Origin: a virus
Length of the DNA stretch: 64,000 bases
Reading direction: 5' to 3' (one strand)
IMG/VR virus record: IMGVR_UViG_3300026518_000006
Location: 1-64,000 of that record
The notes beneath the pieces were generated by a model. It ran no database searches, was not told where the DNA came from, and worked only from the letters and a program-made list of their open reading frames with translations. The stretch's first letter is position 1; every line of letters begins with the position of its first letter. Positions 4,998 through 38,001 of this stretch are shown piece after piece. Position numbers and translations under genes: made by a program.

Positions 4998-5024
4998 AGG
5001 TATAAAAAGAGATAAAGGATTGAA

Positions 5025-5234
5025 ATGAAGAAAGTAGCTGTTGTTTTTGATGGAAAAAGAGGATATATGTTCTACCGAATTAATGGTGGTTGTAATGATG
5101 GAAAATACAACCAAATGGGATATATCACCAATGAAAACGAGTTGAAAAGTCGAGATGCAGTGTTTTTTGAGAGTGTTGTAGACGCAGGTAATTATATCAC
5201 TGCAAAAAGACGAGAAGCCTATAATCTATGCTAA
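5025..5234 (+). CDS. hypothetical early protein, 69 aa
   Basis: It lies 27 bases downstream of a strong early promoter, with AAAGGA before ATG 5025. The protein (KKVAVVFDGKRGYMFYRING) is beta-rich, small and basic, and ends YNLC without the shared tail. Its last 9 bases overlap the convergent endolysin gene. Function unknown. Confidence 0.7.
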   Translation: MKKVAVVFDGKRGYMFYRINGGCNDGKYNQMGYITNENELKSRDAVFFESVVDAGNYITAKRREAYNLC

Positions 5235-5888
5235 ACCCGCTATCCACATATATATTTCTTTTCGTTTTTCGTAACTATCTGTATATCTATTTATTTTCTT
5301 AGTAACACAGTCTATATGGTCGCATTCGTAACATTTATTTGTATACCAAAAGGCTAAAGCAGTTAATGTGGATACTTCTATAGTATTTATTTCAGCTTCC
5401 AATAATTCAGGAGTTAAGTGTTTTCCTAAAACTTTATTTATTACTTCAGTCATTTTTTCATAATTTTCACGACCTGTTAGTTGAAAATATCCACCCCCTC
5501 TAAATCGATACCCATCACCTGAGTTTATATCCCCATTTCCAATTCTATTTGCATATGCAATATTTCCTATGTTCACTTTGTTCGCTTTCTGTATATATTC
5601 TCTACCCCGCTTTATATAACCATCTCTTTCTGCCCATTTGGGGTTATTTCTATACCGTTTAAAGATTGATTTTAACGCAGACACAGAATAATTAAGATTT
5701 TCTCTTTTTGGTTTTAGGTCATAACCAGTTTCTGCTACTATTTGTGCAAGAAAGAAATTCTCTTGTACTTCAGTTTTAACACCAAATGCTTCTGCCTTTG
5801 AACTAAATACTTTATAAAAAGCATCTATATCTTCTTCAGAAGCCTTTTTAAAAATTTTTTTTAATTTATCTTTAGTTGTATGAATCAT
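5226..5888 (-). CDS. GH19 chitinase-like endolysin
   Basis: This is the probable cell-wall hydrolase for lysis. The 220-residue protein shows the glycoside hydrolase 19 pattern: a catalytic-Glu segment AQIVAETGYD (about residues 47-57) and GDGYRFRGGGYFQLTGRENY (about 123-142), typical of phage GH19 muramidase/chitinase-like lysins. No signal peptide is seen. A small membrane protein is encoded immediately upstream, and a TATAAATA late promoter lies at 6235-6242, consistent with late lysis expression. Confidence 0.85.
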   Translation of the reverse strand: MIHTTKDKLKKIFKKASEEDIDAFYKVFSSKAEAFGVKTEVQENFFLAQIVAETGYDLKPKRENLNYSVSALKSIFKRYRNNPKWAERDGYIKRGREYIQKANKVNIGNIAYANRIGNGDINSGDGYRFRGGGYFQLTGRENYEKMTEVINKVLGKHLTPELLEAEINTIEVSTLTALAFWYTNKCYECDHIDCVTKKINRYTDSYEKRKEIYMWIAGLA

Positions 5889-5905
5889 ATGTTTTCCTTA
5901 TAATA

Positions 5906-6208
5906 TTACTTTTTGTTGTTGTTCAAATAGTCTTTTAAGCTTTCAAGTCTATATATCAATATTCTTTGATTTGAAACTAAATCTTTTTCTAAATTTAGCA
6001 TTTCTCTTAACAATGATGCTATTTCTTTCTCATCTTTAGCACGGTTATAGTCAGAAGAAATTATATTTCTATTCATTTCTTGTATTTCTTGTTTATTTTT
6101 CATTAGCATATTTTGTTGATAATTTTCCATAAAAATAACAACAGCACTAGCTATCAGCATCATCAGACGCTCCAATCCTATATGTTCGTCTTTTTTCTTT
6201 TCTTCCAC
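5906..6208 (-). CDS. small membrane protein, holin or lysis-accessory candidate
   Basis: The 100-residue protein has one hydrophobic segment near residues 14-28 (MMLIASAVVIFM), then a long charged coiled-coil-like region. It shares the late promoter at 6235 with the endolysin 17 bases downstream. Position and single membrane span suggest a holin, antiholin or spanin-like role, but no family motif confirms it. Confidence 0.55.
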   Translation of the reverse strand: MEEKKKDEHIGLERLMMLIASAVVIFMENYQQNMLMKNKQEIQEMNRNIISSDYNRAKDEKEIASLLREMLNLEKDLVSNQRILIYRLESLKDYLNNNKK

Positions 6209-6234
6209 AAGAATTCCTTTCTTTCTAAGTAAGG

Positions 6235-6242
6235 TATTTATA
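6235..6242 (-). promoter_or_regulatory. late promoter TATAAATA (minus strand)
   Basis: A perfect T4-type late box lies 27 bases upstream of the membrane protein and endolysin genes. Confidence 0.7.
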
Positions 6243-6269
6243 ACAATAGTTATATCATCTAAAATATAC

Positions 6270-6734
6270 TCATTTCACACCTAATTCTTTTTCCCCCATA
6301 ACCTTCCAAATAATATTTCTCTCTTTACAAAACTTCTCTGCTTCTTTCCATTTAGCTTGATTTATAGGGTCACTCCATTGTTTTTGTGGCTTTACCTCTA
6401 TCAACATTTTTTTGCCGTCTTTCCACTTCACTAAAAAGTCAGGAAAATATCGGTGCTCTTGTCCATCTTTTGGGCTTATGTATGGGATAGAAAATGGTTC
6501 ACAAGTCCAATATTCAACATCTGTGTTTGTGTCGAGGTATTTCATAAGTTTAAGTTCCCAACCACTTCTATATTCAGGATATACCCCTTTATTCATATAG
6601 TTGTCAAAGGGTTGTTTATACTTATTTTCATTAATAGGTTTATAAAACCCTTTTTTAAATTTGCTTCTGCCTCCATCTTCTTGAACTTGTCGTCTTTTTC
6701 GTTTTCGTGAAAATCGTCTCCCTCTACTAATCAA
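6270..6734 (-). CDS. 4: head completion nuclease, T4 gp4-like
   Basis: The 154-residue protein has a basic N terminus followed by YRSGWELKLMKYLD, a D-V-x-Y-W strand, YFPDFLVKWKDGK and LIEVKP. This is the E...D...ExK nuclease pattern of the T4 gp4 (50/65) head-completion family (T4 gp4 is 150 residues). The family finishes filled heads before tail joining. A TATAAATA late box lies 57 bases upstream at 6791-6798. Confidence 0.85.
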   Translation of the reverse strand: MISRGRRFSRKRKRRQVQEDGGRSKFKKGFYKPINENKYKQPFDNYMNKGVYPEYRSGWELKLMKYLDTNTDVEYWTCEPFSIPYISPKDGQEHRYFPDFLVKWKDGKKMLIEVKPQKQWSDPINQAKWKEAEKFCKERNIIWKVMGEKELGVK

Positions 6735-6790
6735 TGTCTTTCCTTAATAAGTATTTAAACTAAATTTCGCTATAGTGGTTTAATCCAAAA

Positions 6791-6798
6791 TATTTATA
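6791..6798 (-). promoter_or_regulatory. late promoter TATAAATA (minus strand)
   Basis: Perfect late box upstream of the gp4-like gene, inside the divergent intergenic region. Confidence 0.65.
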
Positions 6799-6808
6799 AG
6801 GCTTTAAG

Positions 6809-7366
6809 ATGAGAAAAAACAAAATAAGAAAAATTAAAAAGCAACAACTAAAAACAAAAAGCAAAATTCTAAAAGAGAAACAAGAAACACTCAAAACCTA
6901 TAAGCTAAATTCAGAATATAAAGAGGAAACCCCCAACTTTAATTTTTATGATTATTTTTCAAAATATCTAATAAAAGAAATAAGTGATGATATTACTAAC
7001 AATACTGTCACTTATACTCCTCTGTCAGAAATTGAAAATATTGAAGTAAGTTTCACTTTTGACACTTCAGCATTTCTAAGCGTATACAATGATGATATTC
7101 TTGGTAGTCTTACTGATAGAGATAAAAAGAAAATGAAAGTTTCTGAAACATTGGATGAATATGATAAAGATATAGAACGGCTTCAAAAAATTAAGTACAG
7201 TCTTCCAAATAAATATGGAGGTAGGTCAAATAATAAAAAAAAATTTAGTGGCTATGAAGATAGAAGTAGAATAGCCAATGAAGAAATCAGATTAGATAAA
7301 AAAATCAAAAAATTAATAAAAGAAAAGGAAAATTTCTATAATGAGCACCTTGAATACTTCATATAA
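6809..7366 (+). CDS. tailed coiled-coil protein, 185 aa
   Basis: ATG 6809 follows AAGGCTTTAAG. Residues 1-30 form a strongly basic helix, the centre is beta-rich, and the C-terminal third is a Lys-rich coiled coil ending NEHLEYFI. It is among the longest proteins carrying the shared tail. Function unknown. Confidence 0.7.
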   Translation: MRKNKIRKIKKQQLKTKSKILKEKQETLKTYKLNSEYKEETPNFNFYDYFSKYLIKEISDDITNNTVTYTPLSEIENIEVSFTFDTSAFLSVYNDDILGSLTDRDKKKMKVSETLDEYDKDIERLQKIKYSLPNKYGGRSNNKKKFSGYEDRSRIANEEIRLDKKIKKLIKEKENFYNEHLEYFI

Positions 7367-8135: not shown

Positions 8136-8843
8136 TTATATTTTTAAAGGTGTTTTGGGATTTGTTGGTATAAATTTACCGTCTTTAAATCTTGGGGTCA
8201 TAGACCACTTCATTATTTTTTCTTGATTTCTTAGAATTTTATAGTTTATCTCAGCTTCAAGATGTCCTAATTTTTGCTTACCTTGCTTCTCCAACAACAC
8301 ATCACCAACAGGTATTCCATTTTTTATGTTTCTATCAAATGCCATAGCTAATCTGATACTTCCATTTATATATTTACCAAGAGGAAAAATAAGACCGTAT
8401 GGCTTTGAGAGAGAAAATAACTGCTCTTTATTGATATAATTAAATATTATCACATAATCTTGAGATAAAGCATAATCAAAGACGTCATTGTTGATATAGT
8501 CTCTAATGTTGCTTTGTTTATTCGTTATTCTATATAATTTAACTTCATCATTTTGTTTGACGGGCTTAACTTTTTGAACACACCAACGCCACTCATTACC
8601 ATTTATAGTGTCGTAATTCATCATAATTGGTTTTTGTCCACCATCTAATAACAAAAAGAAGTTATATGGAGATAATACATTTATGTACTCTGTGTATTCC
8701 ACTCCATTATTTTCAAGAGCATTCAGCGATTCATTATATTGAGAAATAGAATAGTAGTTGTCAATTGTAAATAAATCTGAACGCTTTGGTATAGCTTCAT
8801 TTATTGCTGTTTTTGGTTCTAAGTCTTGTCTTGTATTTTCCAT
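8136..8843 (-). CDS. late phage protein of unknown function, 235 aa
   Basis: This soluble mixed alpha/beta protein has aromatic-rich segments (YNFFLLLDGGQKPIMMNYD). It is preceded by a perfect TATAAATA box overlapping its 5' edge and is co-oriented with the gene at 7597. The late promoter suggests a structural or assembly role. No family recognised. Confidence 0.55.
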   Translation of the reverse strand: MENTRQDLEPKTAINEAIPKRSDLFTIDNYYSISQYNESLNALENNGVEYTEYINVLSPYNFFLLLDGGQKPIMMNYDTINGNEWRWCVQKVKPVKQNDEVKLYRITNKQSNIRDYINNDVFDYALSQDYVIIFNYINKEQLFSLSKPYGLIFPLGKYINGSIRLAMAFDRNIKNGIPVGDVLLEKQGKQKLGHLEAEINYKILRNQEKIMKWSMTPRFKDGKFIPTNPKTPLKI

Positions 8844-8847
8844 ACTC

Positions 8848-8855
8848 TATTTATA
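8848..8855 (-). promoter_or_regulatory. late promoter TATAAATA (minus strand)
   Basis: Perfect late box 5 bases upstream of ATG 8843. It is close to the start codon, so either the leader is very short or initiation occurs at an internal Met. Confidence 0.55.
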
Positions 8856-8924
8856 TCTAATTACTATTAACCTAATATTAAGGTTATTTAAATACAATAC
8901 AAAATTAAGATAAAAGGAATTACT

Positions 8925-9830
8925 ATGAATGAGCCTATTGCTGTTGATATCGGATATAGTTCAACAAAAGTTTCATATAGAGGAAAACAGGTAAGATTTC
9001 CTACTGCAATCAGTTTTGCTACTGATATTGGTACTCAATTTGGGCAGGAGAATGTATATAAATTTGAGGGTGAAAAATATTATGTAGGACAAGAAGCTGT
9101 ATCAGAGGAGAGCTTTACTACTACTGACTACAAATTTCTGCGTAAATTTGCACCGCTACTAATCTTTCATATTTTGAAGAAATTTGACGAGCATAATCTT
9201 GATATGCCTATTGTTGTTAAAACAGGACTTGCCATCTCGGATTGGGATAAGCGAGATGACTTTAAACAAAGATTGTCAACTATTGAAGTTGATGGTAAAA
9301 AAATTGATTTACAGGTCACTGTGATACCTCAAGGAGCAGGGGCAATTATTGATTGGGTTAACAACGAAAATAATGGGGTTTACCCTGACAGAATTTCAGT
9401 TATAGATATCGGTCACAATACTATTAATTTTTTATCATATGTAAATGGAAGACCTGTAAAAAAAGACATTAGTGGCTACCCAGGACACGGCATATCATCT
9501 ATCATAAAGCCGTTTACAAATTATCTTGAAAATACATATAAAATGAATTTCAGCCAACAAGAAGCTATCCAAATATTCATAAAAAACAAGTTTATGTTTA
9601 ATGGTGAAGACCAAGAGAATGTTAGGGAAATGATTACTCAACTTAAAAAACAGTTTGTGTCTAAGCTTTTTAATAGTGTTTTGGTGAATGATAAGAAAAT
9701 TATCGGCATTAGTGATATTGTGCTTTTGGCAGGGGGTGGGGCTCTACTGCTTCAAGATGTAGACTTTCCCCCTCAATACAAAATTATACAAGAACCAGTG
9801 TTCGCTAATGTAAGAGGGTACGCAGTATGA
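8925..9830 (+). CDS. ParM/StbA-like actin-fold ATPase
   Basis: The 301-residue protein has the actin-superfamily signature: phosphate-1 loop AVDIGYSSTK near the N terminus, phosphate-2 loop VIDIGHNTINF near residue 160, and adenosine motif LLAGGGALLL near residue 280. This matches the ParM/Alp branch. Such proteins polymerise to move plasmids or, in phages, replicated genomes or replication compartments. The following methyltransferase overlaps its stop, and a candidate DNA-binding adaptor follows at 10449. Confidence 0.85.
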   Translation: MNEPIAVDIGYSSTKVSYRGKQVRFPTAISFATDIGTQFGQENVYKFEGEKYYVGQEAVSEESFTTTDYKFLRKFAPLLIFHILKKFDEHNLDMPIVVKTGLAISDWDKRDDFKQRLSTIEVDGKKIDLQVTVIPQGAGAIIDWVNNENNGVYPDRISVIDIGHNTINFLSYVNGRPVKKDISGYPGHGISSIIKPFTNYLENTYKMNFSQQEAIQIFIKNKFMFNGEDQENVREMITQLKKQFVSKLFNSVLVNDKKIIGISDIVLLAGGGALLLQDVDFPPQYKIIQEPVFANVRGYAV

Positions 9831-10423
9831 GTTCAGATAAAAAAACAATTGGTGGTAGTTTAGCAGGCGGAAGCGGTATTTTTGAACGCATTAAGGATGA
9901 TTTTTATGCGACTGACCCATCAAGTACAAGAAGTTTATTTGAAAATGCAGATATTAATGGGAATAGTTTTTATGAGCCTTGTATTGGACAGGGTCATATT
10001 GCTGAAGTAATCAAAGAGTATTTTCCTGATGCTGAAATTATTGGGAGTGATTTGGTTGATAGAGGCTATCCGAATACTATTGTTTGTGATTATCTTACAT
10101 CAAATCCAAAACAAGTAGATTGGGTTGTAACAAATCCGCCATACAAATTGGCAAAAGAGTTTGTTGATAAAGCATTATCCCATACTAACAAAGGTGTGGC
10201 TATGTTTTTAAAGATACAGTTTTTAGAGGGTATGGGCAGAAAAGAGTGGCTTCAAAATTCTCCTCTAAAATATGTGTATGTTTTTAGTAAAAGACAAAAC
10301 CCATTAAGAGACGGTCAATCTATCAATCCTAAAACCAACAAGCCTTGGGCAAGCACTATGTGCTTTGCTTGGTTTATATGGGAGCAGGGTTATACAGGAG
10401 AGCCAACTATTCGTTGGATTTAA
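9827..10423 (+). CDS. N6-adenine DNA methyltransferase-like protein
   Basis: The protein has a SAM-binding motif FYEPCIGQGHIAE (about residues 47-59) and catalytic NPPY in WVVTNPPYKLA (about 99-110), the gamma-type adenine methylase pattern, with a YATDP element near residue 28. At 198 residues it lacks a separate target-recognition domain. It overlaps the ParM-like gene by four bases. It may protect phage DNA or mark origins. Confidence 0.8.
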   Translation: MSSDKKTIGGSLAGGSGIFERIKDDFYATDPSSTRSLFENADINGNSFYEPCIGQGHIAEVIKEYFPDAEIIGSDLVDRGYPNTIVCDYLTSNPKQVDWVVTNPPYKLAKEFVDKALSHTNKGVAMFLKIQFLEGMGRKEWLQNSPLKYVYVFSKRQNPLRDGQSINPKTNKPWASTMCFAWFIWEQGYTGEPTIRWI

Positions 10424-10448
10424 AAATAACAAGTATAAAGGAAAAAAT

Positions 10449-10721
10449 ATGGCAAAAGCAGTACAAGTAAATTTTGATGACAACAGTCAAAGCATCCTAA
10501 AAGAAGTTGATGCTATCCATAGAGATAGTCTTATCAATATGGGGTTGGCATTAGTATCAAGAACAGAATACTATAAAACACTGACGGGAAAAATAAACGA
10601 TGATGTTTCTAAAGTGGCTTCACTTTCATCGTTAGATGAGCTTGAAAAAGAGCTTAATGAAGAGCCTGTGAAGCCAAAAACAGCCAATGCACCAACGAGC
10701 TCAGATTGGGATGATTTTTAA
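10449..10721 (+). CDS. candidate ParR-like adaptor, 90 aa
   Basis: ATG 10449 behind AAAGGAAAAAAT is preferred over the in-frame ATG at 10365, which lies inside the methylase. The N terminus (KAVQVNFDDNSQSILKEV) followed by two short helices fits a ribbon-helix-helix DNA-binding fold, and the C-terminal third is acidic and disordered, ending SSDWDDF. A small RHH protein with an acidic tail next to a ParM-like gene resembles ParR, which couples filament ends to DNA. The link is inference from position and shape. Confidence 0.55.
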   Translation: MAKAVQVNFDDNSQSILKEVDAIHRDSLINMGLALVSRTEYYKTLTGKINDDVSKVASLSSLDELEKELNEEPVKPKTANAPTSSDWDDF

Positions 10722-10732
10722 TATTTTGAGTT

Positions 10733-10764
10733 TTAACTTCTTTTAAAGATTATCCTGATATAAT
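10733..10764 (+). promoter_or_regulatory. early promoter variant with extended -10
   Basis: TTAACT (10733-10738) and TGATATAAT (box 10759-10764) flank the common AAAGATTAT core, with a long 20-base spacer. The TGA before TATAAT may act as an extended -10. It lies just upstream of the gene at 10795. Confidence 0.5.
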
Positions 10765-10794
10765 TAGGTATCTTAAAAGAGAAAAGGATTGAAA

Positions 10795-10962
10795 ATGCAA
10801 ATCAACTTTAAAGAGATGTTGAGATTGGTTCGGCTTCGTATGCTTCAAATTGATGATGCTTCTAAAGAGTATGAGACTTTCAACAAAGAGTGGCGTAACC
10901 TTAAAGATATTGAATCTTCTTTAGTTAAAATTATCAAAGAAGAGCACAAAAGAAATTTTTAA
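10795..10962 (+). CDS. small helical protein, 55 aa
   Basis: ATG 10795 sits behind AAAAGGATTG, the same leader used by other early genes. The 55-residue product (MQINFKEMLRLVRLRM...) is almost all helix and strongly charged. Function unknown. Confidence 0.6.
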   Translation: MQINFKEMLRLVRLRMLQIDDASKEYETFNKEWRNLKDIESSLVKIIKEEHKRNF

Positions 10963-10980: not shown

Positions 10981-11009
10981 TTGACTTTTGAAGAATATTT
11001 GGTTATAAT
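10981..11009 (+). promoter_or_regulatory. early promoter TTGACT-17-TATAAT
   Basis: TTGACT 10981-10986 and TATAAT 11004-11009 with a 17-base spacer. It reads into the leader ORF and the dam gene. Confidence 0.85.
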
Positions 11010-11069
11010 CGGGTATCTTGAAAGGGAAATACCCACAGAACTTGATATAAAAATAAAAAAAGGATTAGT

Positions 11070-11135
11070 ATGGGGATTATAGCGATAGATGATGTAAGTT
11101 TAATAGTTGAAAAAAATAACAAAGAGCAGAGATGA
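11070..11135 (+). CDS. 21-residue leader ORF upstream of dam
   Basis: ATG 11070 follows AAAAAGGATT. The 21-codon ORF ([20 protein letters not shown]) ends in TGA overlapping the ATG of the methylase at 11132. The tight ATGA coupling suggests a leader peptide or a small protein made with Dam. Confidence 0.5.
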
Positions 11136-11998
11136 AAATTTTTGTTCCTCCTATAAAATCACAGGGTATTAAAACAAAGTTAGTTCCTTGGATTAAACAG
11201 ATTGTTCCAAAAAATTTTAATGGCACTTGGGTAGAACCTTTTATGGGAACAGGAGTAGTTGCTTTTAATATCAAACCTAAAAAAGCCATTCTCTGTGATA
11301 CAAACCCTCACCTAATAAATTTTTATAACTCTTTAAAAGATGAAACAATAACTCCTAATATCGTAAGAGCCTTTTTAGAAGAAGAAGGTGTTAAACTACA
11401 ACATATTGAAGATTATTATTATCAAGTTAGAGAAAGATTTAATGAAAAGCACAATCCATTAGATTTTTTATTTATAAATCGTGCAGGTTTTAATGGTATG
11501 ATTAGGTTTAATTCAAAAGGAAAACATAATGTCCCATTTTGTAAAAAGCCCGAGAGATTTTCCAAAGCATATATTACAAAAATAGTTAATCAAGTTGAGT
11601 ATGTCTATAAGCTTATAAAACAAAACGACTATACCTTTTTATGTCAAGATTTCCAAAAGACTATAAATGAAACAAATGGTAAAGAGATAATATATTGTGA
11701 CCCACCTTATATAGATAGACACACAGACTATTTTAATAGTTGGAATGAAGAAGATGAATATAAGTTATTTAATAGTTTAAAAGACTTTCAAGGTAAATTT
11801 ATATTATCCACTTGGCACAACAATAAATACAGAAAAAATCTCTATATTGATAAGTTATGGAGTGAATTTAATCTCTTTACAAGAAAGCATTTTTATCATC
11901 TTGGAGGAAATATAAACAATAGAAATAGTATGATTGAAGCGATAATTACCAATTATACTGTTGATATATTAGAAGAGAAAGAGATAAAACAATACTAA
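11132..11998 (+). CDS. dam: Dam-type N6-adenine DNA methyltransferase
   Basis: This is a D12-class adenine methylase of 288 residues. Motif I appears as [15 protein letters not shown] (about residues 33-47), motif IV as [15 protein letters not shown] (about 188-202), and the N-terminal [15 protein letters not shown] resembles the family's P-x-x-x-G-x-K-x-x-L start. It is expected to methylate adenine in a short target such as GATC, though specificity cannot be read here. It is translated from an early promoter with an overlapping leader ORF. Confidence 0.85.
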
Positions 11999-12115: not shown

Positions 12116-12144
12116 TTGACTTTTAAAGATTATTAGGTTATAAT
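12116..12144 (+). promoter_or_regulatory. early promoter TTGACT-17-TATAAT
   Basis: TTGACT 12116-12121 and TATAAT 12139-12144, spacer 17, upstream of the gene at 12175. Confidence 0.85.
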
Positions 12145-12174
12145 TAGGTATCTTAAAAGAGAAAAGGATTGAAA

Positions 12175-12504
12175 ATGGCAAGACTTACTATTCACACAAA
12201 GACAGGGCGTTTGACAAGAGATGCACAAAGAAAAATTACAGAAGCGGTTGAACTCGACAGAAAAATTGCAGAACTTAAAGCGCAAGCTGATGGCATCAAG
12301 GTGCAACTCAAAGAGGCTATCGAAGCTGAAGGTATCAATGGTATTGAAACAGAAAACTATAAAGTTATCTACAAAGCACCAACGGTAAGAAACGGTGTTG
12401 ATACAAAAAGAATGAAGACAGAAGCACCTGAGCTTTACAAAAAATATTTGAAGACTTCTAAGGTGGCTTCTTCCATCTCTATCAAAAATTTGGAGCAAGC
12501 GTAA
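12175..12504 (+). CDS. coiled-coil phage protein, 109 aa
   Basis: I choose ATG 12175 (MARLTIHTKTGRL) behind AAAAGGATTG. A coiled coil (KIAELKAQADGIKVQLKEAI, about residues 31-50) leads into NGIETENYKVIYKAPTVRNG and D-T-K-R-M-K. This architecture is common in small phage proteins of unknown role: a helix hairpin followed by a beta domain ending near K-x-S-S-I-S-I-K. Early expression suggests takeover or recombination functions; no assignment is made. Confidence 0.65.
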   Translation: MARLTIHTKTGRLTRDAQRKITEAVELDRKIAELKAQADGIKVQLKEAIEAEGINGIETENYKVIYKAPTVRNGVDTKRMKTEAPELYKKYLKTSKVASSISIKNLEQA

Positions 12505-12786: not shown

Positions 12787-12815
12787 CTTGACTTCTATTA
12801 AAGATTATTATATAA
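12787..12815 (+). promoter_or_regulatory. early promoter TTGACT-17-TATAAT
   Basis: TTGACT 12787-12792 and TATAAT 12810-12815, spacer 17. It is preceded by the CTCAAA-rich leader found in the regulatory cassettes, and drives the repeat gene at 12845. Confidence 0.85.
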
Positions 12816-12844
12816 TTAGGTATAAAAAGAGATAAAGGACTCAA

Positions 12845-13573
12845 ATGACATTTAAAGACCTCTATGGAGACAAATCAAATGAAGTCTATTATGGAGACCT
12901 TAATATCTCTGATAAAGGATTAACTTCATTAGAGGGTTGTTATAAAAAAGTTGAGGGCAATTTTGATTGTAGTTATAACAAAATAACTTCATTTAAGTAC
13001 TGTCCTGATATTAGTGGTGACTTTTATTGTAATAGAAACAACATAGCTGCATTTAAGTTTTGTCCTGATGTTGAGGGTGATTTTGATTGTAGTTATAACA
13101 AAATAACTTCCTTTAAGTACTGTCCTGATGTTAAGGGTGACTTTTATTGTAATGGAAACAACATAGCTTCATTTGAATACTGTCCTGATATTAGTGGTGA
13201 CTTTAATTGTAGTGATAATCAAATAACTTCATTTAAGTTTTGTCCTGATGTTGAGGGTGATTTTGATTGTTATAATAACAAAATAACTTCCTTTGAATAC
13301 TGTCCTGATATTAGTGGTGACTTTAATTGTAGTGATAATCAAATAACTTCATTTAAATACTGTCCTGATATTGAGGGTAATTTTTATTGTAGTAGAAACA
13401 AAATAACTTCCTTTAAGTTTTGTCCTGATATTAAGGGTAATTTTAATTGTAATCATAATCAAATAACCTCATTTGAAAACAAATACTATTACCCTAATGT
13501 AGAGTTAGACAAAGACATTAAACAAAAATATATTGAGTTCGGTAAAAAATATTTTCCTCAGTATTTTATTTGA
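12845..13573 (+). CDS. leucine-rich-like repeat protein A with tail
   Basis: The protein has a conserved cap (MTFKDLYGDKSNEVYYGDL), then a degenerate unit and eight exact 20-residue repeats of the form ITSFKYCPDISGDFYCNGNN, and closes with a helical end KDIKQKYIEFGKKYFPQYFI. Each repeat carries two regularly placed Cys, a Pro-Asp turn and an Asn near the end, as in the phage and bacterial LRR-like solenoids that read SLxGCPxxVxGDFxCxxNxL. The likely role is protein binding. It has two paralogs in the window (20273 and 37017) and an early promoter of its own. Confidence 0.8.
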   Translation: MTFKDLYGDKSNEVYYGDLNISDKGLTSLEGCYKKVEGNFDCSYNKITSFKYCPDISGDFYCNRNNIAAFKFCPDVEGDFDCSYNKITSFKYCPDVKGDFYCNGNNIASFEYCPDISGDFNCSDNQITSFKFCPDVEGDFDCYNNKITSFEYCPDISGDFNCSDNQITSFKYCPDIEGNFYCSRNKITSFKFCPDIKGNFNCNHNQITSFENKYYYPNVELDKDIKQKYIEFGKKYFPQYFI

Positions 13574-20272: not shown

Positions 20273-21001
20273 ATGACATTTAAAGACCTCTATGGAGACA
20301 AATCAAATGAAGTCTATTATGGAGACCTTAATATCTCTGATAAAGGATTAACTTCATTAGAGGGTTGTTATAAAAAAGTTGAGGGCAATTTTTATTGTAG
20401 TAGAAACAAAATAACTTCATTTGAGTATTGTCCTGATATTAAGGATAACTTTTATTGTAATGGAAACAAAATAACCTCATTTAAGTTTTGTCCTGATGTT
20501 GAGGGCAATTTTTATTGTAGTAGAAACAAAATAACTTCATTTGAGTATTGTCCTGATATTAAGGGTGATTTTTATTGTAGTGGAAATCAAATAACTTCCT
20601 TTGAGTATTGTCCTGATATTAAGGGTGATTTTTATTGTAGGGGAAACAAAATAACTTCCTTTGAGTATTGTCCTGATGTTAAGGGTAGCTTTAATTGTAG
20701 AGATAATCAAATAACTTCCTTTGAGTATTGTCCTGATATTAAGGGTGATTTTTATTGTAGGGGAAACAAAATAACTTCATTTAAATACTGTCCTGATATT
20801 AAGGGTAACTTTTATTGTAGTGGAAATCAAATAACTTCCTTTGAGTATTGTCCTGATATTAGTGGTGACTTTAGTTGTCGTAATAACAAAATAACTTCCT
20901 TTGAAAACGAGTATTACTATCCTAATGTAGAGTTAGACAAAGACATTAAACAAAAATATATTGAGTTCGGTAAAGAACACTTTCCTCAGTACTTTATTTG
21001 A
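20273..21001 (+). CDS. leucine-rich-like repeat protein B with tail
   Basis: I choose ATG 20273 (MTFKDLYGD) as in the paralogs, with GGAG just upstream. The cap and C-terminal end are almost identical to the protein at 12845. The eight central 20-residue repeats (ITSFEYCPDIKGDFYCRGNK type) are shuffled and vary mainly at surface positions. It ends HFPQYFI followed by a 13-bp tandem array. There is no TTGACT promoter directly upstream; it is read with the genes before it. Confidence 0.8.
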   Translation: MTFKDLYGDKSNEVYYGDLNISDKGLTSLEGCYKKVEGNFYCSRNKITSFEYCPDIKDNFYCNGNKITSFKFCPDVEGNFYCSRNKITSFEYCPDIKGDFYCSGNQITSFEYCPDIKGDFYCRGNKITSFEYCPDVKGSFNCRDNQITSFEYCPDIKGDFYCRGNKITSFKYCPDIKGNFYCSGNQITSFEYCPDISGDFSCRNNKITSFENEYYYPNVELDKDIKQKYIEFGKEHFPQYFI

Positions 21002-21145: not shown

Positions 21146-21174
21146 TTGACTTCTTATAAAGATTATTGTATAAT
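21146..21174 (+). promoter_or_regulatory. early promoter TTGACT-17-TATAAT
   Basis: TTGACT 21146-21151 and TATAAT 21169-21174, spacer 17. It is preceded by repeats of AGCACTCAAA and drives the gene at 21201. Confidence 0.85.
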
Positions 21175-21200
21175 TGGTATAAAAAGAGAAAAGGATTTAA

Positions 21201-21716
21201 ATGAAAACAAGAGTTGTAAAAAATAAAAATGGAAAATATATAGTTCAATTTAAACGAGAGATTTTCGGTATTTCTATGTTTTGGTGGACTACATCGGGCT
21301 ATCTTGAGTGTAGTGGAGGGGGCAACTGTTGGAATGAGCCCTATATATTCAAAACAGAAAATGAAGCTGTTGAATTTATGATTAAAATGGTTTTGGAGCG
21401 AGAAACAAAAGACAAATTGGCTGAAGAAGCGGGTGTTGTTGCTGAAGCAACAAGCGAAGAAGTAAGAGAAAAATTTCCGCAATTTTTATATAGAAATATG
21501 ATAAGAGTAAAGAAAGATAAAAATAATTTGTATATTATTGAGAGAAGAGTTGGGTTTCACGCCATAAAGATGTGGTGGCGTGCGGTGTCTTATTATAGAG
21601 GACTACCGTATGTTTTCGCTTCTGAAGAGGAGGCTGTAAAATACTTTGTAAAAAATCTTGCCACTGAGTATGATAAACAAATATTAAGTAAAATATACCC
21701 TGAATATATTATCTAA
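21201..21716 (+). CDS. tailed protein formed by fusion of two related units
   Basis: Residues 1-98 and 99-171 are related. Each has R-V-x-K-x-K-x-x-x-Y-I, then a tryptophan-rich strand (MFWWTTSGY / MWWRAVSYY), then an E-x-E-A-V helix. The first half closes REKFPQFLYR, which would be a tail plus stop (PQFFI) if the T5 run at 21483-21487 had one more T. ATG 21498 would then start the second gene. The whole ends IYPEYII. Confidence 0.65.
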   Translation: MKTRVVKNKNGKYIVQFKREIFGISMFWWTTSGYLECSGGGNCWNEPYIFKTENEAVEFMIKMVLERETKDKLAEEAGVVAEATSEEVREKFPQFLYRNMIRVKKDKNNLYIIERRVGFHAIKMWWRAVSYYRGLPYVFASEEEAVKYFVKNLATEYDKQILSKIYPEYII

Positions 21717-37016: not shown

Positions 37017-37865
37017 ATGACATTCAAAGACCTCTATGGAGACAAATCAAATGAAGTCTATTATGGAAACCTTGATATCTCTGATAAAGGATTAACTTCA
37101 TTGGAAGGTTGTTATAAAAGAGTTGAGGGCGATTTTAATTGTAGTTATAACCAAATAACTTCATTCAAGTATTGTCCTGATATTAGTGGTGACTTTTATT
37201 GTGGTTATAATCAGATAACCTCATTTGAGTTTTGTCCTGATGTTGAGGGCAATTTTTATTGTAGTAGAAACAAAATAACTTCATTTGAGTTTTGCCCTGA
37301 TGTTAAGGGCGATTTTGATTGTAGGGGAAACAAAATAACTTCATTTAAATACTGTCCTGATGTTGAGGGTAATTTTTATTGTAGTTATAACAAAATAACT
37401 TCATTTAAGTTTTGTCCTGATATTAAGGGGAATTTTTATTGCAGTTATAATCAGATAACTTCATTCAAATGCTGTCCTGATATTAGTGGTGACTTTTATT
37501 GTGGTTATAATCAAATAACTTCATTTGAGTTTTGTCATGATATTAACGGTGTCTTTAATTGTAATGGTAATCAAATAGCTTCATTTAAATACTGTCCTGA
37601 TATTAAGGGGGATTTTTATTGTTATAATAACAAAATAGATTCCTTTAAGTATTGTCCTGATGTTAAAGGTGATATTAATTGTAGTGATAATCAAATAGCT
37701 TCATTTAAATACTGTCCTGATATTAAGGGTAATTTTAATTGTAATCATAATCAAATAACCTCATTTGAAAACAAATACTATTACCCTAATGTAGAGTTAG
37801 ACGAAGACATCAAAAAACGCTATGTTGAGTTCGGTAAAAAACACTTTCCTCAGTATTTCATATAG
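37017..37865 (+). CDS. leucine-rich-like repeat protein C with tail
   Basis: The cap and C-terminal end match those at 12845 and 20273, but there are ten central 20-residue repeats, so the 282-residue protein is exactly two units longer than its 242-residue paralogs. One unit has lost its Pro (FCHDINGVFNC). It ends HFPQYFI. No 13-bp array follows, but a palindrome and early promoter do. Unequal exchange between repeats would explain the length difference. Confidence 0.8.
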   Translation: MTFKDLYGDKSNEVYYGNLDISDKGLTSLEGCYKRVEGDFNCSYNQITSFKYCPDISGDFYCGYNQITSFEFCPDVEGNFYCSRNKITSFEFCPDVKGDFDCRGNKITSFKYCPDVEGNFYCSYNKITSFKFCPDIKGNFYCSYNQITSFKCCPDISGDFYCGYNQITSFEFCHDINGVFNCNGNQIASFKYCPDIKGDFYCYNNKIDSFKYCPDVKGDINCSDNQIASFKYCPDIKGNFNCNHNQITSFENKYYYPNVELDEDIKKRYVEFGKKHFPQYFI

Positions 37866-37945: not shown

Positions 37946-37974
37946 TTGACTTCTATTAAAGATTATTGTATAAT
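37946..37974 (+). promoter_or_regulatory. early promoter TTGACT-17-TATAAT
   Basis: TTGACT 37946-37951 and TATAAT 37969-37974, spacer 17, upstream of the gene at 38002. Confidence 0.85.
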
Positions 37975-38001
37975 TAGGTATCTTAAAAATAAAGGCTTTC
38001 T

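Follow-up and report, generated by a model that had tools for sequence, protein, structure and literature searches.

A ParMR-like gene pair with an intervening methylase gene in a T4-like phage genome

Large virulent phages often bear a gene annotated as a "partition protein", with its partner unnamed. In plasmid systems of the ParMRC type (R1, pSK41, pB171) an actin-like motor is followed by a small protein, and the locus described here is similar in this order, in the predicted ribbon-helix-helix (RHH) arrangement of the small protein and in its conserved C-terminal tail. It differs from ParMRC in that it lies in a T4-like phage, a methylase gene stands between the two genes, a parC is unproven and the curated ParR models miss the phage small protein. 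The cassettes of Campylobacterota plasmids (pCIG1485E, pHRV44) are also alike, with the nearest plasmid ParMs and an aromatic C-terminal tip on the small protein. AlpAC of prophage CGP3 (Corynebacterium glutamicum) likewise couples a phage actin to an adaptor that binds DNA, a property predicted for the protein here, and the AlpAC pair helps phage DNA to be replicated and placed (PMC4446434). Its adaptor gene comes first (PMC4446434) and the pair is prophage-borne; the present locus has the ParMR order, with the motor gene ahead, and a search of the record turned up no phage integrase. Campylobacter CP220-type, Vibrio Va1 and Rhizobium Y65 phages encode a ParM/MreB-like protein of the same "partition protein" annotation (~21-26% identity), but no recognisable homologue of our small protein was seen near parM in them.

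The window analysed is the first 64 kb (64,000 nucleotides) of a 235,593-bp virus record, IMGVR_UViG_3300026518_000006, which carries T4-type head genes (DNA end protector, head closure, T4 portal). An earlier note on this DNA had described a ParM-like actin, an adenine methylase and an RHH-like protein in one overlapping unit, and all three open reading frames are present where it placed them:

8925..9830, + strand: ParM-family actin-like ATPase, the motor (PHROG 691, Pfam, pCBH ParM, nucleotide motifs)
9827..10423, + strand: putative N6-adenine DNA methyltransferase (NPPY), PHROG 799 (E=4e-61); apparently an unconserved passenger
10449..10721, + strand: ParR-like adaptor (ten homologues downstream of ParM, AlphaFold2 helices, plasmid profile match)
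10449-10590, + strand: predicted RHH N-terminal half of the adaptor, with a disordered tail after it (AlphaFold2 helices)
10677..10718, + strand: adaptor C-terminus (...TSSDWDDF), a tail suggested to bind ParM (aromatic tips in phages and plasmids)
8844..8924, no strand: gap ahead of parM; a weak candidate for an operator/centromere, with an 11-bp periodicity and an inverted repeat

The description of one overlapping unit stood for the first two genes, which share a 4-base ATGA overlap, and failed for the third, which starts 25 nt past the methylase stop, behind its own AAAGGA-type ribosome site. We consider it probable (roughly 0.7) that parM and the small-protein gene are a phage-borne type II (actin) partition-like pair of the ParMR type that positions phage DNA during infection, and that the methylase gene was inserted into it.

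The actin and its small partner protein

Judged by sequence, 8925-9830 encodes a true member of the ParM family of actins (301 aa) whose nucleotide motifs are intact, as the earlier note had proposed. It matches PHROG 691 ("partition protein", E=6e-37) and the Pfam families ALP_N (2e-17) and MreB-like_C (7e-10), and its nearest solved sequence is the ParM of plasmid pCBH (PDB, 1e-8). The phosphate-1 (DIGYSSTK), connect-1 (PQG), phosphate-2 (DIGHNTIN) and adenosine (AGGG) motifs are largely invariant across 8 homologues. Close homologues, at 45-66% identity, are found in eight IMG/VR contigs, in Yersinia phages GN1 and YerA41 and in Cobetia phage Carin-5; further out, at 21-26%, come homologues in phages of Campylobacter, Vibrio and Rhizobium, and a scan of genome contigs with ParM found no relatives. 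The nearest plasmid ParMs are those of Campylobacterota, 32-35% identical to the homologue of contig L024. In L027 the ParM (5001-5745) lacks residues ~244-284 and appears broken from its sequence; an HNH-like homing endonuclease gene then lies at 5791-6891.

A homologue of the small protein was found near ParM in all ten other ParM loci of the clade (L009, L010, L012 from GN1, L013 from Carin-5, L020, L021, L024, L026, L027 and L028), always downstream and on the same strand. These homologues were found by reading the ParM neighbourhoods; a search of the phage collection with the small-protein sequence alone found none, and a match in L011 was set aside as chance, being partial (residues 40-90) and inside an unrelated ORF. 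The two genes overlap by one base in L020 and are 16 nt apart in L028. At the 10 loci where ParM is intact, the pairwise identity matrices of ParM and the small protein are correlated (r=0.91, Mantel p=2e-4), so that by this sequence measure the two diverge in step across the clade. That the adaptor gene is linked to parM and kept with it as a conserved pair is thus well supported by the sequences, and this part of the proposed segregation-type cassette held; the methylase as a member of a functional three-gene unit did not. Three distant phages with a ParM of the same kind have a different small protein directly before parM (L016 2687-2992, L017 2498-2893, L015 2571-2900), with a KITIES..SINIDF-like start and an acidic tail, possibly another type of adaptor.

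The 90-aa product of 10449-10721 has both the RHH-like start and the acidic, here also aromatic, end ascribed to it in the earlier note, and both are conserved. An AlphaFold2 monomer model built from nine sequences places helices at residues 11-19, 22-37 and 40-46 after an N-terminal extended segment, with pLDDT ~90 for residues 11-40 and low confidence beyond. This order fits that of ParR, beta1-alpha1-alpha2-alpha3 plus tail (PMC5016525), with beta1 unscored as a strand in the monomer model. The predicted architecture is therefore that of an RHH ParR: extended segment, alpha1, alpha2, alpha3 and disordered tail. No curated RHH or ParR family matched the protein, Foldseek with the monomer model gave nothing significant and the profile of the small-protein family had no match in the PDB. 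A fold unlike that of a DNA-binding protein, which the earlier note had named as a refuting result, did not emerge from the monomer model, though it keeps some probability. An aromatic C-terminal tip is present in 11/11 phage small proteins, mostly as W-[DNEG]-x-F; the tips are DWDDF, GFDDF, AWEGF, SWDSF, SWDAF, SWDTF, SWNDF, TWDSF and SWGQF, with GGFASW in L021.

The proteins in the ParR position on plasmids share several of these traits. In plasmids of Campylobacter iguaniorum, C. upsaliensis, Nitrosophilus and Thermovibrio the small gene after parM overlaps it, as in the phage locus L020; the plasmid proteins are 86-110 aa long, and four of them have a W or F tip, at or next to the C-terminus. 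Aligned with hhalign, the phage and plasmid profiles match over 56 N-terminal columns (E=1.3e-4, probability 54%); the score was 28.4, and shuffling the columns 200 times gave no value higher than 15.1. The five plasmid proteins were also compared singly with the phage profile, beside a 184-protein control. L041 (22.7) and L043 (22.5) outscored every unrelated protein, and L040 (20.0) narrowly exceeded the highest unrelated score (19.3); L039 and L042 (2/5) gave no match. The first entry of the control list is in fact L041's own protein with an extended start, which the exclusion had failed to catch. We regard this as moderate, not conclusive, sequence evidence that the phage and plasmid proteins are distantly related by common descent.

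Candidate sites and repeats

The earlier note suggested a search for iterated sites on either side of the cassette. Ahead of parM, near 8860-8925, a weak 11-bp periodicity is present at 8839-8924 (8839-8918 in a narrower delimitation), with z=3.0 at lag 11 relative to 500 dinucleotide-shuffled sequences. The stretch 8844-8924 ranks third among ~455 non-coding 80-bp windows of the genome (~p=0.007 at lag 11), and an AACCT-7-AGGTT inverted repeat occurs once, at 8869-8885. The periodicity was not seen upstream of parM in the phage relatives, and in relative G002 some windows distant from ParM are just as periodic. Stronger 11-bp periodic arrays precede parM in the Campylobacterota plasmids L039 and L041, and a 10-bp period is found in L043, whereas the phages have none or a weak one. 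We therefore treat 8844-8924 as a weak candidate for an operator/centromere. The non-coding DNA of the genome held no array of exact 10-mers, and no clear iterated centromere was found.

Several other candidates were rejected. Clusters at 177453 and 201248, considered as iterons, are both coding; the palindrome AACCTAATATTAAGGTT has one exact copy in the genome; and the repeat clusters of G002 include none near ParM. On the downstream side, near 10720-10790, the repeat at 10735-10798 was dismissed as a centromere, since the genome has ~20 such copies, placed ahead of genes. As it precedes genes and holds a TATAATTAGGTATC core, it is most likely a phage promoter. In the window this ~60-bp repeat is found at 10735-10798, 10985-11029, 12120-12177, 12788-12845, 21146-21201 and 37946-37988, and a core TATAATTAGGTATCTT in it is followed by a ribosome site. 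Genes built of 60-bp repeats (20-aa, CPDISGDFYCNRN-type) are also present in the window (12960-13474, 20382-20904, 37126-37766), with several paralogues in the genome.

Proposed mechanism and alternative readings

In the mechanism that we propose, the 10449 protein would form RHH dimers that bind phage DNA, and its disordered tail, ending in W-D/E-x-F, would dock on the end of the ParM filament, in the way that the tail of ParR engages R1 ParM; the conserved tip and the published ParR structure suggest this docking. Driven by ATP, ParM filaments could then shift phage DNA to or keep it at a position inside the infected cell or, alternatively, spread genomes during slow or carrier-state infection, and the methylase would be a cargo gene inserted between the pair. 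Against a partition-like pair, we know of no obvious need for partition in T4-like virulent phages. The conserved adaptor with its distinctive tail tip makes actin-filament DNA placement in such phages directly testable. More tentatively, and with the odds against it, this clade of T4-like phages may run a complete actin DNA-positioning machine, ParM with its own ParR, possibly without a fixed centromere array; if so, it would be an actin counterpart of the PhuZ spindle.

The earlier note instead made the methylase a working part of the cassette, with methylation possibly marking a centromere-like site. The methylase gene's 198-aa product carries the NPPY motif (TNPPYK in translation). The ATGA overlap with parM speaks for this reading, as the two are probably co-translated. 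Among the ten relatives, however, none has a methylase between parM and the small gene. The space holds nothing in L009, L010, L020 and L028; in GN1 and Carin-5 it holds a gene annotated as dUTPase / NTP pyrophosphohydrolase (MazG-like); and, typed by reading translations, homing-endonuclease-like genes fill it in L021 and L027 and small unrelated ORFs in L024 and L026. The three-gene order is thus unconserved, a result that the earlier note had named as refuting its reading and that here tells against the methylase, and the inter-gene space accepts insertions. PHROG 799 is absent from 9/10 relatives' records, several of which are fragments; the sole match, at 75064-75690 of the L024 contig, lies ~15 kb from its ParM cassette. 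Homologues of this family occur in 592 phage records from many hosts. Since the methylase lies outside the conserved cassette, methylation of a centromere is left unsupported, and we hold that role to be highly improbable. From these comparisons the gene looks like a passenger outside the functional unit, one that more likely protects phage DNA from restriction, and the case shows that a four-base overlap can make an inserted gene look like part of an operon.

Two further readings concern the small protein, and we judge both unlikely, the second rather more so. It might be only an RHH autoregulator linked to ParM, which would use another adaptor or be a plain cytoskeletal filament: RHH proteins often act as repressors, parM is preceded by an inverted repeat and a weak periodicity, and some ParMs have no recognisable ParR (PMC12270681). 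Yet L009, L010 and L021 have a gap of no more than ~10-20 nt ahead of parM, which leaves little room for a conserved operator, and repression needs no disordered tail with a conserved aromatic tip. Alternatively, the filament might serve another role in infection, such as capsid or host-cell organisation, with the small protein linking protein cargo to it. In jumbo phages, filaments of the tubulin PhuZ transport capsids (PMC7950403), the DNA-binding role is drawn from fold order alone and the searches gave no DNA site; the homology signal to the plasmid ParR-position proteins, some of whose plasmids have 10-11-bp periodic repeats upstream, argues against this reading.

Methyltransferases and palindrome avoidance in the record

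A second adenine methyltransferase gene of the D12 family (2e-48) lies nearby, at 11132-11998 of the window, and is absent from the records of all ten relatives. Over the whole record (the window and L029-L037), short palindromes are extremely avoided, with observed (expected) counts of 0 (652) for GATC, 0 (174) for GGCC, 3 (605) for CATG, 5 (219) for ACGT, 4 (70) for CGCG and 9 (142) for CCGG; CCAG/CTGG, GCWGC and GGWCC are also low. This scarcity would fit a phage under strong pressure from restriction, with methylases that act against it. Avoidance is only mild in relative G002, and the L020 and L024 loci, like the present record, are without GATC.
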